Positions 46,815 through 54,628 of a stretch of 64,000 nt of DNA are shown piece by piece (the stretch's first letter is position 1; each line of letters starts with the position of its first letter). The stretch is from Candidatus Gastranaerophilales bacterium (lineage in GTDB: Bacteria; Cyanobacteriota; Vampirovibrionia; Gastranaerophilales; Gastranaerophilaceae). The DNA lies in assembly GCA_944325595.1 (NCBI GenBank), contig CALVAQ010000006.1:1-64000 (forward strand), given 5' to 3'. The notes under the pieces are model-generated. The model saw only the letters and a program-made list of their open reading frames with translations. It ran no database searches and was not told where the DNA came from. The position numbers and the translations under genes are program-made.

Positions 46815-47897
46815 TTATTCATAAAAATCACTGAATAAAGAGGGCTGTTTCACATCCCAATTTACGCCTGTTTTAACCACTTTTGCAGGTATACCGGCAA
46901 GAATTGTATTGGATTCTTGAAACGGTTTGTTAACAAGACTGTTTGATGCAACAATTGTATTATCAGGTATAACGGCACCTTTGAGAATTGTTGTATTGTA
47001 ACCGAGCCAGACTTTATTGCCTATATTAATATCCTGACCTTTATTTATAATTCTGCCTGTTGCCATATCATAAACTGTATGTGCATCGCTTGTTCTAATA
47101 TACAATTTTTCTGCAAACATACAATTGCTGCCAATCCTTAAAGAAAGATTTGGTTCAAACGTCAAACAAATTTTAGCCCCTATACAATAGAAATTTGCTC
47201 CGGCCTCAAAAACATTATTATCTGCGGACAGATAAAATTCTGAATTTGAAATATATTTAACCGGTCTTTTTATAGAAAAAGAGCAATTGTTCTTACATAC
47301 TATAGAAGTATTTTTAAATTTTGATAAAGAATCTTCATGTAGAATAATTGTATTGCCTGAGCCGAGAAAAGAAATATTCAATCCTCTAATCTTTTTGTTA
47401 TATTCGGTTTTAATGCCAAAATCATCTACTATATAGACAGTGTTGTTCTTTTTTATGTTTTGTACAAGATGTTTTTTTATTTCATGAATATATTTTGTGA
47501 TGTTTAGCATTAAAAACTTACAGAATTTTATATTTTGGGAAATAAAAAATATTTTTGCGTTACAGTTCTTATTTCGAAGATAAAATTTTAATGACGGAAG
47601 AACAGAACTGTATTGCTGTAAACAACAAAGGATAATATCGGGCTTTGCTTTAACAATTTTATCCGGGGTATATATCTTATAATTGTATTCCGTTTCAAGT
47701 TCCGGCAAATCATAGTATTTTACATCCGACACGCCGACTACATTGAAATTATCAAAAGAATAAAGTTCTTTTATCTTTTGAAAAAGCTTGCCTGTTCCGT
47801 ATATTAAAACTCTTTTGTCTTTATACTTTTCAGACAGTCTATCCAGCTGTTTTTTTATTCTGTTTTTATAAATAAAATCTTCTATGCTATCTGTCAT
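46815..47897 (-). CDS. Hexapeptide-repeat acyltransferase with N-terminal Rossmann-like domain
   Basis: 360 aa. Residues 1-115 look like a nucleotide-binding alpha/beta domain (VLIYGTGKLFQKI, then a GVSDVKYYD strand), often seen in sugar-modifying enzymes. From about 160 the protein turns into a left-handed beta-helix and ends in the maltose/galactoside acetyltransferase pattern IGNKVWLGYNTTILKGA...AGIPAKVVK. Such proteins acetylate or otherwise acylate surface sugars. It lies 24 nt after a truncated methyltransferase and close to a repeat island, and has no Shine-Dalgarno sequence stronger than GGGGAG. It is probably a leftover of a surface-glycan cluster. Confidence 0.82.
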   Translation of the reverse strand: MTDSIEDFIYKNRIKKQLDRLSEKYKDKRVLIYGTGKLFQKIKELYSFDNFNVVGVSDVKYYDLPELETEYNYKIYTPDKIVKAKPDIILCCLQQYSSVLPSLKFYLRNKNCNAKIFFISQNIKFCKFLMLNITKYIHEIKKHLVQNIKKNNTVYIVDDFGIKTEYNKKIRGLNISFLGSGNTIILHEDSLSKFKNTSIVCKNNCSFSIKRPVKYISNSEFYLSADNNVFEAGANFYCIGAKICLTFEPNLSLRIGSNCMFAEKLYIRTSDAHTVYDMATGRIINKGQDINIGNKVWLGYNTTILKGAVIPDNTIVASNSLVNKPFQESNTILAGIPAKVVKTGVNWDVKQPSLFSDFYE

Positions 47898-47921
47898 TAT
47901 TCTATATACTCCCCGAAAAAA

Positions 47922-48428
47922 TTATGTATAAAAAAAGCTTTTTATCCGGTCGATATCAGCAACCTCTACACCAAGTTCGGAACGGACATCTTTTCCCAAA
48001 TTATCAAAATCCATCCCAACATATTCATTTACAATTTTTTCATAATTGTTAAAAAGTATATCCGAAGAAGAATCAAGATTGCTGACTATTGTCAAACCTG
48101 TCGGCGCTGCATCTGCATTATAAATTTTCAGGTCAGGTCTGTATTTTTTTAAAATCAAAATTATTTTAAATACATCTCCTGTCCAAAAATTTGTTGTTCT
48201 GTTTCTCTCAGAAGTAACCTTGTCTCTCGGTACTGTGTCATGCAATACAATAAAAGAATCTTTCGATGCACATCGTTTTTCTATATTAATAAAATCTCTC
48301 AAAACATACTCAAACAAATGCATGCCATCAATAAATTTGTTTCTGAATTTTAAAATCTCTTTTGAGAGCGTATGTTTCTCTTTCTTTGGGTTACTTTCTT
48401 TCTCTTGCTTGAGTCGTAGGCGAGGCAC
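47922..48428 (-). pseudogene. 5'-truncated SAM-dependent methyltransferase
   Basis: The translatable part is about 150 residues. KFIDGMHLFEYVLRDF, then FIVLHDTVPRD, then FWTGDVFKIILIL match the second half of class I methyltransferases linked to glycan clusters ('(F)IDG.H.FEY.LRD...LHD..P'). The SAM-binding N-terminal half is missing. Homology stops near 48375, where the frame runs into the inverted-repeat element at 48390-48491, giving a nonsense basic start. Truncation by insertion or recombination at the repeat island is inferred. Confidence 0.65.
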
Positions 48429-48491
48429 GAGCCGTACGAATCAGGATGCCCTTGTGGTATGCACACGCAATTCAAAGAGAAAGAAAGTAAC
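48390..48491. mobile_element. 102-bp element with perfect 17-bp terminal inverted repeats (MITE-like)
   Basis: GTTACTTTCTTTCTCTT at 48390-48406 is repeated in exact inverse at 48475-48491. The 68-bp interior is non-coding. No clear target duplication is visible. It sits exactly where the methyltransferase loses homology. The mobile nature is inferred from shape only. Confidence 0.45.
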
Positions 48492-48607
48492 ATGTAAAAA
48501 TAAAGATTTAGGTTTTAAAAACAAAGATTTTTGTTTTATCTTCCACCCATTCTTTACCGTAAAGAACGGGTGGAGCCCAAGAAAGCCCGACCTACTGTTA
48601 CATTCAT

Positions 48608-48750
48608 ACAGAAAGTAAATTAAACCAGAGTCTCATAACTCGCAGTCCATATTGTCTTGAAAAATCATAAATGGATAACTAAAATATTGAAAATAATTAC
48701 GGACTGCTCGGACAGATGAGACTAATTGTTGTTTAATTAACTTTCTGTAA
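48608..48750. repeat. Imperfect inverted-repeat element
   Basis: The left arm begins ACAGAAAGTAAATTAAAC and continues through GTCTCAT to GCAGTCC at 48648. The right arm is its inverse from 48701 to 48750 with small insertions. It can form a long hairpin with a loop of about 50 nt. No coding potential. Confidence 0.5.
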
Positions 48751-48780
48751 TTTTTATACAGCACGGAGAAACTTCGTTTC

Positions 48781-48831
48781 TCACTTAGCTTGCCTCTATC
48801 AAAATGATATTTAATCATTTTGACAGAGTTC
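48781..48831 (-). repeat. Leader-type hairpin element, copy 3
   Basis: On the minus strand ACTCTGTC is followed by the perfect stem TCAAAATGAT-TAAAT-ATCATTTTGA and then TAGAGG. The order CTCTG - hairpin with TAAAT loop - AGAGG matches the elements before tRNA-fMet and tRNA-Leu. No tRNA is near this copy. Confidence 0.4.
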
Positions 48832-49327
48832 TTACAAAGGTCGGCATCTTATTGCTTAATTTTAAACAGGTTTCAGAGCGGAGACCTGATGTGGTTTCGG
48901 TTAGAGATTTTTTAATTAAGAACAAAGATTTCTGCTTTATCTTTCACCCGTCCGGAAATCCGCTGTCTTGGATTTCCTTCTCGCTCGAACAGTTTCGCCT
49001 TTTGTGCTTTGCACAAGCCGGCTCAATGTTCTCGCTCCCCGGGTTTCACCCGTCCGGAAATCCGCCTCTTGGATTATTGGCAGTTCAAAAGTTCTTGCAC
49101 TCCGTTTTGATTTGCTTTGCAAATCCCACTCCGCCGAACTTTTTCACAGGTCGGCGTTCCCTCATTTCATTCGGTCAGCCTAGCCAAAATCTGCTCTTGG
49201 ATTATTGGCGTTCACAAGGTTTAGTATTCCGTTTCGAATTTTTATTCTAAAAATTCTTTACTTCATCAACCTTGTTCACATGGCTGTTCGCTCACTTCGT
49301 TCGACTCCACAGCCGCTCAAAATCCGC

Positions 49328-49356
49328 AAAAAAAAAGCTCTAATTTTCATTAGAGC
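49328..49356 (-). terminator. Terminator on the minus strand in the repeat island
   Basis: On the minus strand GCTCTAAT-GAAA-ATTAGAGC is followed by TTTTTTTTT. It is probably the end of transcripts from the calpain-like gene after a long 3' untranslated stretch, or of an unseen small RNA. Confidence 0.75.
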
Positions 49357-49624
49357 AATACTTTTAATAGGAAGGGAAGGTTAGGAAGTTAGTTAGGTAG
49401 GTTAGTTAGTGTGAAAGTGTCTCGTCTATTTTTATGTTTAATTTTTTCTCGTTTTGTTCAATCCGGTGTCGTCTTTTTCGCTTCGAGCCTTCGAAGCTCA
49501 AAGACTCACCTTTTCAATTAGTCGCTCGAAAAATTCTTTCCTATCAAGAATTTTTTTCGGACATTCAATGCTTACATATATATAAAGTATATACAAACTC
49601 CAAAATTTCACCCATGAGTATATA

Positions 49625-49657
49625 CTGTTACATTTCTTTACAAAAGTAACAGTTTTT
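49625..49657 (+). terminator. Terminator-like hairpin facing the protease gene
   Basis: CTGTTAC and GTAACAG pair across a 14-nt loop and are followed by TTTTTTAA on the plus strand. No plus-strand gene lies upstream; it would block transcription leaving the repeat island. Confidence 0.5.
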
Positions 49658-49676
49658 TAATTTACTTGAGTTATTT

Positions 49677-51311
49677 TCATATATTTTCCGATAAGTCTGT
49701 TATTGTAATCTGGTGAAGTCGCCGATAAAAGTCGTCTACACTTATTTCTTTAATTTTTGATGTATCGTGCGGATCGATGAGTCTCACTTTGCCATCTTCT
49801 ATTGAATCAAAACTATATGCGTGATCGTCTTCTGATGACTCATCCAGCGCTACAACTATTAAATTGTTTGGATTATTTATATATTTTTCGAGCAGTGTTT
49901 TATCCAGTTTGCCTTCTTCGTTATTACCGTAATTTTTCCGAATTGTATTTTCAAAACCGCCCAGAGAATATGTCAAGGTCTTTTTGCCTGTTAAAACAGC
50001 AATTGCATTAGAAGCATATCCGCCCTCAAGCTCATACCCTTCTGTGTAATTTAAACCGTTGTCTCCTGTAAAATTAACCGAATTTTTATCTCTGGACATA
50101 TTTTTTGAATCTATTAATTCTCTTCTGTATCTTTCAAATGCCATTTCAATAGCCATTACATCTCTGTCACCAATGGAGAATCTGCCTTCTTTTATTGCAT
50201 TATCAATTTCTTCATTTGTTATTGTATAAATCTTTCCGGCGCCTTTTAAAGTAACGGTTGCATTACCGTTTTCATCAACTTTTAAAATATCTTTGAGTTG
50301 CTCCTGTCCTTTCGGGTCATTTGCCAATTCTTCAATTGCCGCCAAAAGCCAGCAATCACCTATTTTACCCTGTGAAAAATCACCTATAATTCCATCAGCT
50401 TTATTATTTGCCATTTCTATATAACGCTGTGCTTTTCCTGTAATTTCAAAAGTCTTGGTATCAGGATTCCATTTGTACTCTGTTTCAAAGAAATGATAAG
50501 GATCGGAAGGTTCAATATATTTGTTATACACATCTTTTATTGCAGTATCTTTTTTCGCCAATTCTATATTGTACATACGAGCTGTGTATAATCCGTTTTC
50601 GTTCTTTTTACCCAGACCGTAGCGTTCGGATTCATATTTTTCCTGAGTCAATCCGTTACCCCAACAATCATAGTATTTATTTCCGTTTCTTGTATAAGAA
50701 CCGTTTGAAAGAATTTCGGTTATATTGGTTGTTTCAAAGCTATCTGTTTTGCTGTTCCAGGTTACATATTCTTTTTTTATTTCTGTGCCGTTTTCAGTTT
50801 TTACCGGTGTTTCTTTTATATATATATTTTCTTTTGCCGTTTTTTTGTACCCGTAAAAATCTGCAAAAGCATAATGGGCATTAATCTGCGCACCAACACC
50901 TTTAGCATTCAAATTATTTCCGTCCATATATGCAATGGTTTGTTCTTTGTACGGGTCACGGCTTGTTACTTTTTTGTATGTTCCTTCTGAATCAATATAG
51001 TTTCCGTTTGGCAAAACAAGCTGCGGCTTGCCGGTTTTTACAAATTTATTTTTTGTTTCATCCCATTTAAAATATTTATCTTTATTTTCATCATAAAAAT
51101 ATACAGGGATTTCAGTTGGTTTGTAGCCTTTATCTCTTGCTACAAGTTCCATTTCTGAGGGTTCTTTGGGGGATTGAGTATCGGAAATTATATCAGTACC
51201 AAATGTACTGATATTTGTATTTGTATTTGCAGCAACAGAATTTGAGCTTGCGCTATTATATCCGTAAACTGAAATATCCTTTGATGATATATTTAATGAA
51301 AATAAACCCAT
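49677..51311 (-). CDS. Calpain-family (C2) cysteine protease domain protein
   Basis: 544 aa from the ATG at 51311. The C-terminal half has the calpain active-site block QGKIGDCWLLAAIEEL with Cys320, and the second block DDHAYSFDSIEDG...LIDPHD with His497. The third catalytic residue, usually Asn in 'RNPWG', appears to be Asp513. No calcium-binding PEF domain follows. The N-terminal 300 residues contain two similar segments ending in YFKWDETKNKF and EYKWNPDTKTFEITG, suggesting a repeated substrate- or wall-binding module. No signal peptide. Bacterial calpain-like proteins are often secreted or surface-linked; the location here is unknown. Confidence 0.82.
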   Translation of the reverse strand: MGLFSLNISSKDISVYGYNSASSNSVAANTNTNISTFGTDIISDTQSPKEPSEMELVARDKGYKPTEIPVYFYDENKDKYFKWDETKNKFVKTGKPQLVLPNGNYIDSEGTYKKVTSRDPYKEQTIAYMDGNNLNAKGVGAQINAHYAFADFYGYKKTAKENIYIKETPVKTENGTEIKKEYVTWNSKTDSFETTNITEILSNGSYTRNGNKYYDCWGNGLTQEKYESERYGLGKKNENGLYTARMYNIELAKKDTAIKDVYNKYIEPSDPYHFFETEYKWNPDTKTFEITGKAQRYIEMANNKADGIIGDFSQGKIGDCWLLAAIEELANDPKGQEQLKDILKVDENGNATVTLKGAGKIYTITNEEIDNAIKEGRFSIGDRDVMAIEMAFERYRRELIDSKNMSRDKNSVNFTGDNGLNYTEGYELEGGYASNAIAVLTGKKTLTYSLGGFENTIRKNYGNNEEGKLDKTLLEKYINNPNNLIVVALDESSEDDHAYSFDSIEDGKVRLIDPHDTSKIKEISVDDFYRRLHQITITDLSENI

Positions 51312-51496: not shown

Positions 51497-54400
51497 ATGT
51501 TACAAGAAGCTACAAAGATTATTCAGTCGGCATTTCACGACAGTTTTATAAAAAGGTTAAGCCTTTATCTGCACGATTGTGTCAGAGAAGAGGTTCAAAG
51601 TTCCACATTCAGAAACCTAAAACAGGACAAAGACAACAAATGGATTTTTCTTAAAGGCGACGAAAGTTTGTTTTCAAACTTTGATGAACCTTTGTATCTT
51701 GACGGTTCTGACAGTGATTTGACAGAGCTAATGATACAGAGCGAAATGAGCCAGAAAGACAAATATCTGATATACGGTCATCTGTTTCTTGTAGGTAAAA
51801 ATTCCCGTTCAAAAAGAAAAAATGAATTTTTGACACCGCTGTTGTATGCACCATGTCGTCTTGAAAGAGATGGTGTAAATATTGCCTGTACACTGCAGGA
51901 TGATGTATTGTCTCTGAATACAGGTGCACTGACGGCATTAATGAGAAAAAGTGATGATGAAGACGAGATGGAGCAGATGCTCGACGGACTTCTTGAGGTT
52001 GTGCCGGAACTGCCGCTCACACAGGAAAAGCTGGACATCTTTTTAACAACACTAAAATCAATTCTTCCTGATGTCGATATTTCTTTGCAAAATGAAGAAG
52101 ATGATGAAGAAAACAATGTAAAAGATGAGGCAGACAGCTTCTATCACAAAATTGATTCAGAAAATTTAGACGATTTTATAGAAGACACACAAGATTCAAA
52201 ACCTGCGCTAAAACTTGATAAAGTATCGGTTACAAAACAGAATGCAGTAATTTTGACCAAAAGACCTTCTGTTACGGCAGGTGTGCTGCATGAACTCACC
52301 CAGATTGCGGAAAAGCCAAGCGGTTATTTCAGAGAGTCTGCCTTGTCTGTTGTAAATGAAGAATATTTAAGAGGAATAGGCAAGCTCTTTGACAAAGGGA
52401 ACAAAGAAAAAAAAGAACTCAAAGATTTTGCACCATGCACCCCGCTTTCATTGAGTGACTCACAGGAAGATGTAATCAGAAAAATAGAGCAGAATACTTT
52501 GCTCGCTGTTTACGGACCTCCGGGCACGGGTAAATCACAGACTATTGTAAACCTTGTTGCACATCTTGTCTCACACGGAAAAACAGTTCTTGTTGCTTCA
52601 CGTATGGACAAAGCTGTTGATGTAGTTGCACAAAGGCTTAATGAACTCGGTGCACCTTTTCTTGCACTGCGTGCCGGCAGAATGAATTATCAAAAACAGT
52701 TGAGTTTTCAGCTCCAAGATTTGATTGCAAACAAAGTTGACATAGATACCGGCTTTGAAAATGCAATTCTCGTAGATGTCGACGACATGACAGACCTGCT
52801 CTCGGCTATAAGGGAACTGGAAAACAAATGCGAAAAAATTCTTTCACTCGAAAAGGAATGGCACAATATCATTGAAAAGAAACAATCCCTTGAATCTGAT
52901 TTGGGAACAAGAGAGTATATTAATAAAAAACTAAAAAAAGATGAAGTCGAGCAGATAAAAAAAGTTCTTTCAACAATTGAAAAAAATCTTGAAAAATCAG
53001 GATTATTCACAAATATTTCCAATACATTAAATGCACTGAAGCTGAAAAAGATTTTGAATGTTTCTTCTCTTCCCGCAGACCCGGAGTCTATAATAAGGCT
53101 TTCTCTTGAGCTACAGGCTGAAGAAATGGAATGCGATGCAAGGATTATCGAAACGAGAATACACAAAATCGGAAATATCCATCAGCTTTTATCACAAATA
53201 AAAGACCTTAAGAAAAAGCAGAGAGGTCTTGCTGTTGATATTCTAAAAAATAAAAGAAGAGAATCTCTCAAGGGATTGCTAAGAGACCAGATAAAAAGAC
53301 AAAGACTCATTGTCCACACCAAGGCAATAGTGGAGCGCAAAAAGAATCTTCAAAACAGATTGCTTGAAGAAGAAGATTTCAGACCGCTGCTGGAAGCATT
53401 CCCCTGCTGGTGCGTGACGACATATGCCGTATCCGGTTCATTGCCTATGAAATCAGGACTGTTTGATGTGGCAATTATAGATGAGGCATCTCAGTGCGAT
53501 ATAGCAAGCTGTTTTCCGATATTATTCAGAGCTAAAAAAGCAGTTATAGTCGGGGATGACAAACAGCTTCCGCATTTGTCTTTCCTTGAGAAAGCTAAAG
53601 AACAATCCTTCCTGAGTCAATACAATATACCTGATAAATATCAGCTTATGTGGAGATTCAGAACAAACTCAATGTTTGATTTAGCCAATTATTACTCCAC
53701 AAATCCTGTTTTGCTCGACGAGCATTTCAGAAGCTATTATCCGATTATTCAATTCAGCAATCAGGAATTTTACGGAAACAGAATCCGCATCATGACAAAA
53801 GATTCGGGAACAAATGATGTACTTGAATTGCACAAAGTTCCGGACGGAAAAGTTGACTCCGATGCAACAAGAAATATGCCTGAATGCGAAGCTGTTCTAA
53901 AAAGGGTGCATGAATTGATTCTCGAAGACGAAGGAAATGATGAAAACCCTGTATCTATCGGTATAATTTCACCGTTTAGAGGTCAGGTTGATTTGATATC
54001 CAAAGCATTGAGACAGGTTTTGACAGAAACTACAATAAGAAAACACCAGATAGAAGTCGGTACGGCTCATACTTTTCAGGGTGATGAAAGAGACGTAATG
54101 ATTCTTTCATGGGCTATTGCAGAAAACAGCTTTGTTCAGAGTTTGACATTCCTTCAAAAGCCGAATTTGTTTAATGTAGCAATCACCCGTGCACGAAAAA
54201 AACTCATAAACTTTATTTCACGTGACCCGAAAGGTCTGCCTTCCGGACTATTGAGAGATTATCTTGAATATATAGAAAGATATCTGGATTCAGCAAAAAC
54301 AGATGAATTTCAAAAAAACAAATTCAAAAATTCCTTTGAACAGGAAATCGCTCAAGCTCTTGTTATGGAAGGTCTTGAGGTCAAAGCAGGAATTGAAGCC

Positions 54401-54628
54401 GCAGGAGTAATACCTGATTTGCTTGTAAAAGACGAATATTCTGACTTTGTTGTTGTCGAAATTGACGGTGTTGAAGACTCTCAAAAGTCAAAAATATCCG
54501 ATATGAAAAAACAAACTATACTTGAACGTGCCGGCTACAAAGTTATCAGAATTTCATTCAGAGAATGGCAGCACAGTTCAACTGCCTGTGTTGACAGAGT
54601 AAAAAAGCTTGTTGCGCAGCAAAGTTAG
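51497..54628 (+). CDS. SF1 helicase (UPF1/DNA2-like) with C-terminal PD-(D/E)xK nuclease domain
   Basis: 1043 aa. Walker A is GPPGTGKS (340-347), Walker B IIDEASQC with DEAS at 662-665, followed by VGDDKQLPH. Other SF1 motifs are LMWRFR, ISPFRGQV, GTAHTFQGDERD and VAITRARKK. The last 100 residues look like a Vsr/DUF559-type endonuclease: a glutamate in SFEQEIAQAL, then GVIPDLLV and FVVVEIDG (Asp, Glu-x-Asp), then a lysine-rich helix and AGYKVIRIS. The first 230 residues are acidic and unassigned. Single-gene helicase-nuclease proteins of this kind occur among antiphage defence proteins and in repair. Neighbours give no further clue. The stop overlaps the convergent tagged gene by 4 nt (TTAG). 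Confidence 0.88.
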   Translation: MLQEATKIIQSAFHDSFIKRLSLYLHDCVREEVQSSTFRNLKQDKDNKWIFLKGDESLFSNFDEPLYLDGSDSDLTELMIQSEMSQKDKYLIYGHLFLVGKNSRSKRKNEFLTPLLYAPCRLERDGVNIACTLQDDVLSLNTGALTALMRKSDDEDEMEQMLDGLLEVVPELPLTQEKLDIFLTTLKSILPDVDISLQNEEDDEENNVKDEADSFYHKIDSENLDDFIEDTQDSKPALKLDKVSVTKQNAVILTKRPSVTAGVLHELTQIAEKPSGYFRESALSVVNEEYLRGIGKLFDKGNKEKKELKDFAPCTPLSLSDSQEDVIRKIEQNTLLAVYGPPGTGKSQTIVNLVAHLVSHGKTVLVASRMDKAVDVVAQRLNELGAPFLALRAGRMNYQKQLSFQLQDLIANKVDIDTGFENAILVDVDDMTDLLSAIRELENKCEKILSLEKEWHNIIEKKQSLESDLGTREYINKKLKKDEVEQIKKVLSTIEKNLEKSGLFTNISNTLNALKLKKILNVSSLPADPESIIRLSLELQAEEMECDARIIETRIHKIGNIHQLLSQIKDLKKKQRGLAVDILKNKRRESLKGLLRDQIKRQRLIVHTKAIVERKKNLQNRLLEEEDFRPLLEAFPCWCVTTYAVSGSLPMKSGLFDVAIIDEASQCDIASCFPILFRAKKAVIVGDDKQLPHLSFLEKAKEQSFLSQYNIPDKYQLMWRFRTNSMFDLANYYSTNPVLLDEHFRSYYPIIQFSNQEFYGNRIRIMTKDSGTNDVLELHKVPDGKVDSDATRNMPECEAVLKRVHELILEDEGNDENPVSIGIISPFRGQVDLISKALRQVLTETTIRKHQIEVGTAHTFQGDERDVMILSWAIAENSFVQSLTFLQKPNLFNVAITRARKKLINFISRDPKGLPSGLLRDYLEYIERYLDSAKTDEFQKNKFKNSFEQEIAQALVMEGLEVKAGIEAAGVIPDLLVKDEYSDFVVVEIDGVEDSQKSKISDMKKQTILERAGYKVIRISFREWQHSSTACVDRVKKLVAQQS

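Follow-up and report, generated by a model that had tools for sequence, protein, structure and literature searches.

What are the repeats that crowd the interval beginning at position 48336 of the window analysed here (a 64,000-nt stretch of the genome of Candidatus Gastranaerophilales, an uncultured gut bacterium related to cyanobacteria), and how did they come to lie together beside a broken gene? A preliminary description of this DNA had offered two readings: a recombination hot spot at which surface-glycan genes were lost or exchanged, or an array of non-autonomous repeats. We consider it probable that the stretch is an accretion of non-autonomous, hairpin-forming mobile repeat families, dispersed through the host genome and its relatives, at a junction of gene loss and rearrangement. 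The mosaic would have arisen as elements inserted alongside or within each other and adjacent to a small-RNA gene's terminator; a transposase or recombinase acting in trans would mobilise the units, probably in folded single-stranded form; and the repeats may have contributed to the gene loss and rearrangement instead of accumulating in a region where selection had already relaxed.

Repeat content and modules of the mosaic

The individual repeats are present as originally described. The 22-nt direct repeat TTTCACCCGTCCGGAAATCCGC has copies at 48942 and 49044, the 16-nt direct repeat CTCTTGGATTATTGGC has copies at 49066 and 49194, and the segments 48921-48949 and 48520-48548 agree at 26 of 29 positions; the reported hairpins and inverted repeats were likewise found (for example, the 19-nt arms of M3; Table 1), as was a GTTAG/AGTT mini-tandem at 49380-49410. 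Within 48336-49645, exact repeats reach a length of 22 nt, compared with at most 15 nt in 200 dinucleotide-preserving shuffles. Two open reading frames (ORFs) do carry the peptide KNKDFCFIFHP, because both read copies of the repeat held by M2 and M5; a protein-coding reading of the chance ORFs was rejected, as they gave no Pfam match.

The boundaries of the stretch needed redrawing. The mosaic starts at 48336, a left edge common to at least eight paralogs, and not at 48375 as first proposed, and it extends up to a small-RNA gene at 49328. Nor is the stretch entirely free of genes, as 49328-49645 (minus strand) is a conserved predicted small-RNA gene with its promoter. Eleven modules, delimited by the start and end points of matches (Table 1), explain the repeats described above: the 22-nt repeat consists of two right ends of units that begin with TCTT (hereafter TCTT units), the 16-nt repeat of two left ends, and the 26/29 repeat is a piece common to M2 and M5, while the GTTAG tandem is the conserved small-RNA gene read on its reverse strand. 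A search of 47500-50000 against Rfam gave no family match up to E = 1, and sigma-70-like sites in the repeat region number 3 against 3.8 expected.

Table 1. Modules and adjoining features of the repeat mosaic (positions in the window).
Feature	Positions	Strand	Remarks
Methyltransferase remnant, Methyltransf_24-like, C-terminal ~137 aa	47922-48335	-	Cut at repeat edge
M1, long palindromic repeat	48336-48508		Left edge identical in at least 8 paralogs
E1, 53-bp unit inside M1 palindrome, between TCTT and TG	48407-48459		Exactly missing from other M1 copies
M2, hairpin module, stem-loop 48543-48574	48510-48600		TCTT unit interrupts paralog L016
M3, MITE-like, 19-nt inverted repeats, 95% (48607-48625 / 48731-48749)	48586-48752		Also in another genus of the family
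M4, hairpin 48794-48828	48748-48833		
M5, stem-loop 48867-48888; part of 26/29 direct repeat with M2	48856-48931		
Truncated TCTT-unit right end, first 22-nt copy	48942-48963	+	
M6, 100-nt unit TCTTGG...AAATCCGC; right end is second 22-nt copy	48966-49065	+	
M7, 128-nt unit TCTTGG...AAATCTGC	49067-49194	+	
M8, 133-nt unit TCTTGG...AAATCCGC; closing stem and two hairpins, covariation	49195-49327	+	
Predicted small-RNA gene body: C/U-rich unpaired segment and intrinsic terminator (stem-loop 49356-49337)	49328-49459	-	
M10, 103-bp hairpin-containing insert between small-RNA promoter and body	49460-49562		Related copy in L027
Predicted small-RNA promoter block, conserved (TGTAACAGTATATACT ... TTTGTATATACTTTATATATATGTAAG)	49563-49645	-	

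Dispersal of the units and candidates for their mobilisation

The modules turn up again, rearranged, at dozens of sites in the host genome and in every one of the 23 genomes of its genus (Candidatus Gastranaerophilales), so that the second of the two original readings, an array of non-autonomous repeats, stands; neither are the units unique to this locus nor is the gene order around it invariant. Queried with 48360-49680, the host genome (1.91 Mb in 30 contigs) yields 88 matches, spread over most contigs and both strands and varied in order. At a threshold of E <= 1e-6, matches occur in 115 of 146 genomes of the family, representing 39 of its 41 genera, in part through the small-RNA and promoter blocks. 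A covariance model of M8 detects 20 copies in the host and 393 in the 23 genomes (the sum of the per-genome counts), with a range of 1 to 43 per genome. When an exact pattern for the left end of M8 was searched in one genome per species (84,980 species), the matches listed belonged to Candidatus Gastranaerophilales or to same-genus metagenome-assembled genomes (MAGs) under other names. The repeat counts given here come from genome searches and fetched stretches.

Comparison of related loci reveals filled and empty versions of several sites. Both the window and L004 contain E1; L007, L017 and the first M1 copy of L070 lack it and have unbroken flanking bases, and no target-site duplication distinguishes the filled from the empty copies. 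Two E1 copies occupy two TCTT/TG sites in L005, and L014 has a fused arrangement that resembles the outcome of recombination between the members of such a pair. A unit of the M6 type sits inside the M2 hairpin in L016, with M2 uninterrupted in the window, L003, L004 and L007, and M10 is missing from the host genome's two other small-RNA copies (L002 and L020). Paralog pairs with and without the insert display exact insertion of units of 53 bp and of ~109 bp; as comparisons between paralogs, they establish exact gain or loss of units and carry no direction or date.

What might move such units? A single transposase of suitable type was found, encoded by a RAYT gene (REP-associated tyrosine / Y1 transposase) at G000:C25:2040-2570. 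This gene scores 130.6 bits against the NCBIfam equivalog REP_Tyr_transpos (cut-off 80), and its neighbours are a GTAG palindrome and a tRNA-Glu gene accompanied by partial copies in tandem; no mobilising enzyme could be tied to the TCTT units, and no gene-bearing or autonomous element with the unit ends was seen in the fetched loci. It is possible, if doubtful, that the units derive from a REP/BIME system mobilised by the host RAYT, with TCTT taking the role of the GTAG tag. The RAYT gene next to its palindrome, the 40 distinct instances of GTAG-tagged palindromes elsewhere among the fetched loci, and the insertion of E1 without target duplication are all consistent with such an origin. However, the window mosaic contains no GTAG palindrome, the TCTT units of 100-133 nt have ends unlike those of REPs, and RAYT occurs in 8 of the 23 genus genomes whereas the units occur in all 23. 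Missing from 15 genomes of the genus, RAYT was rejected as a universal driver. It may instead move the GTAG elements themselves, a type of palindrome for which a published catalogue exists that includes cyanobacteria (PMC3733652).

Some further observations concern the surroundings of RAYT and tRNA genes. RAYT genes lie within ~2 kb of tRNA genes at L050/L069, L120, L121, L122, L124, L125, L126 and L129, and those at L050, L121 and L122 are flanked by tRNA-linked repeat copies. Of the 27 distinct tRNA genes that the fetched loci contain, 16 have partial copies (13-21 nt, from the 5' or 3' end) on the same side, a fraction biased because these loci were picked for repeats, and none has a copy on the wrong side; the copies are often tandem, with repeat units between them (L015, L025, L029, L054, L057, L058, L059, L065, L002, L050, L121, L122, L179 and others). 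Elsewhere in the window, 51497-54628 (plus strand) encodes a 1043-aa AAA_11/AAA_12 helicase with a C-terminal MTES_1575 endonuclease domain; a sub-threshold similarity to the anti-phage helicases ProA, Hhe and PLuB makes it a possible defence gene.

Fold of the TCTT units and the split small-RNA gene

M6, M7 and M8 belong to a single unit type, which starts with TCTTGG and ends with AA(A)TCCGC or a close variant. Such units are mostly 73-141 nt long (the commonest lengths being 100, 128 and 133) and follow one another head to tail in mixed tandem arrays with a spacing of 0-2 nt. Aligned at a mean identity of 82%, 37 units of the M8 type share a fold that combines two hairpins with a closing stem; the first hairpin contains an inner stem, and 97.4% of cells in the alignment are paired. 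Changes on both sides occur in 13 pairs, compared with a shuffled mean of 8.9, and the covariation score of 0.203 (against 0.084) was reached by none of 500 shuffles; sliding the structure by 1-3 columns makes the pairing collapse. Since the fold was taken from the same sequences and kinship inflates the counts, the covariation counts as strong evidence, though not as independent evidence. Hairpin-templated repair of palindromic DNA, moreover, can also yield compensatory changes, without selection for structure.

A fold maintained through compensatory changes is also what one might see if the units were selected structured RNA or DNA elements, acting as 3' end stabilisers or terminator accessories, and the mosaic were a regulatory intergenic region. 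In line with this, 11 of the 71 arrays lie directly against an intrinsic terminator's T tract, all in one orientation. We nevertheless regard such a function as improbable: most arrays lie away from terminators, copy number varies from 1 to 43 between species of one genus, and the units lie inside other repeats and border a truncated gene. Integron-like cassette arrays devoid of genes, suggested by the mixed tandem arrays with common unit ends and 0-2 nt gaps, are very improbable, as the unit ends in the 37-unit alignment carry TCTTGG and AATCCGC in place of the GTTRRRY core of attC. Rather unlikely, too, is the more ambitious proposal that the TCTTGG...AATCCGC units represent a new class of gene-less structured cassettes, interchangeable and 70-140 nt long, which a recombinase would add and remove via folded single strands and which would have spread family-wide.

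Insertion into hairpin loops was considered as a general rule for the TCTT units and rejected: when the flanks of 71 arrays were rejoined and the stem across the junction was scored, the mean was 9.7, compared with 9.3 at random points. Individual cases such as L212 nevertheless look striking.

The right end of M8 abuts the T tract of the terminator of the predicted small-RNA gene (49645-49328, minus strand). Among 25 complete genus copies that were aligned, the 3' block is almost invariant, and the layout runs from a conserved promoter block through a variable A-rich leader and a C/U-rich segment (CCTACCTAACTTCCTAACCTTCCCTTCCTATTAAAAGTATT, nearly unchanged across copies) to an intrinsic terminator. 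A conserved promoter and an intrinsic terminator around a conserved non-coding body are the marks of a predicted trans-acting small RNA, and its C/U-rich sequence suggests that it may pair with ribosome-binding sites. According to the corresponding model, 23 of 97 genomes in the family, drawn from 10 of 41 genera, carry 1-3 copies each, and in several genomes the gene lies downstream of a calpain-like gene. In the window copy, the 103-bp M10 separates the predicted promoter from the body. Further copies of the predicted small RNA are found in L002, L070, L166, L176, L210 and others. The GTATATACTTTATATATATGTAAG promoter block also precedes a 23-codon ORF with a terminator beside tRNA-Asn (L061:1721, host C22), and has weak matches in L063, L064 and L068; a promoter block shared by the small RNA and this ORF could possibly mark a regulon.

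Gene loss, rearrangement and likeness to known systems

On its left side, as had been noted, the mosaic begins where a truncated methyltransferase gene ends, and this gene in turn adjoins a hexapeptide acyltransferase (46815-47897). The remnant (ORF 47922-48428) matches its Pfam family weakly, over positions 73-105 of a 105-position profile. Its intact homolog, a protein of 257 aa with 51% identity, is encoded in G042, a genome of another genus; homology to it begins at FIDGMHLF, within ~3 bases of the repeat edge and ~115 residues into the G042 protein, and so ~115 N-terminal residues have been lost. The intact gene in G042 adjoins aminotransferase-like and glycosyltransferase-like ORFs (read from the sequence rather than from a family search), which fit the "glycan" label of the preliminary description. 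Of its proposal that surface-glycan genes were lost or exchanged, the loss is borne out by the cut methyltransferase gene and its intact counterpart, and the exchange is not.

Larger differences become apparent around asd, a gene conserved at 87-100% in all 23 genus genomes. The region upstream of asd varies among sister genomes: acyltransferase homologs are present there only in G006 and G008, and G017 has a decayed methyltransferase remnant and a different repeat mosaic. In G008, nifJ lies ~130 bp from the acyltransferase gene, next to the acyltransferase/asd cluster; in G017, it lies just past the mosaic, with repeats, methyltransferase remnant and asd adjoining. In the host genome, nifJ is found near 79.6 kb on the same contig (C6) and the same strand, 31 kb away. 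A second repeat mosaic follows directly after nifJ there (G000:C6 ~78.9-79.65 kb; L067), at the other end of the 31-kb nifJ-asd displacement. Colinearity between G017 and this region at the calpain gene and small RNA stops past the calpain gene. The displacement of nifJ, with mosaics at both junctions, places the repeats at synteny breaks, and together with the differences upstream of asd it makes the suggested recombination hot spot plausible, on the strength of genomes that are all metagenome assemblies, which tend to break or misjoin at repeats.

The same property raises the prospect that the mosaic itself is an artefact of unrelated repeats misjoined in a metagenome-assembled genome, given the 30 contigs and the many related arrays at contig ends, but this is highly implausible, as the order M6-M8-small RNA is repeated in L002 of the same genome and the order unit-small RNA-calpain in the sister genome G017. 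For Gastranaerophilales more generally, the locus serves as a warning that metagenome assemblies will break or misjoin at such mosaics. Very little has apparently been published on the repeats or small RNAs of this group, and our literature search on these subjects returned nothing relevant. The locus brings together structured mobile units spread family-wide, gene loss with a 31-kb rearrangement, and a split small-RNA gene, each of which is testable.

Among known systems, miniature inverted-repeat transposable elements (MITEs) are non-autonomous elements with terminal inverted repeats. The 19-nt inverted ends of M3 and the self-complementary closing stem of the TCTT units recall them; unlike MITEs, E1 lacks a target duplication, and the fetched loci show no autonomous parent with the same ends. 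REP/BIME elements and their RAYTs (PMC3733652; PMC2817692) are similar in being short, palindromic, extragenic, clustered and non-autonomous, and the host does have a RAYT. However, REPs are palindromes of 20-40 nt carrying a GTAG tag (GTAG- and CGTC-tagged palindromes are the types described in the literature; PMC3733652; PMC2817692), whereas the units here are 100-133 nt long with TCTTGG/AATCCGC ends and do not track the presence of RAYT. The intergenic mosaics of Neisseria, in which CGTC-1 REPs lie among other families (PMC3733652), offer a parallel for short-repeat families interleaved between genes; compared by description, the array units here differ in sharing their ends and structure while varying inside. 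Small hairpin elements also accumulate in the intergenic DNA of mitochondria (yeast, PMC4478555; sponge RHE, PMC2800124), but our elements reside in a bacterial chromosome, and hairpin-loop targeting, which was tested here, is not general. The mosaic as a whole resembles known REP/BIME/MITE-like mosaics, and the array units are its unusual part.
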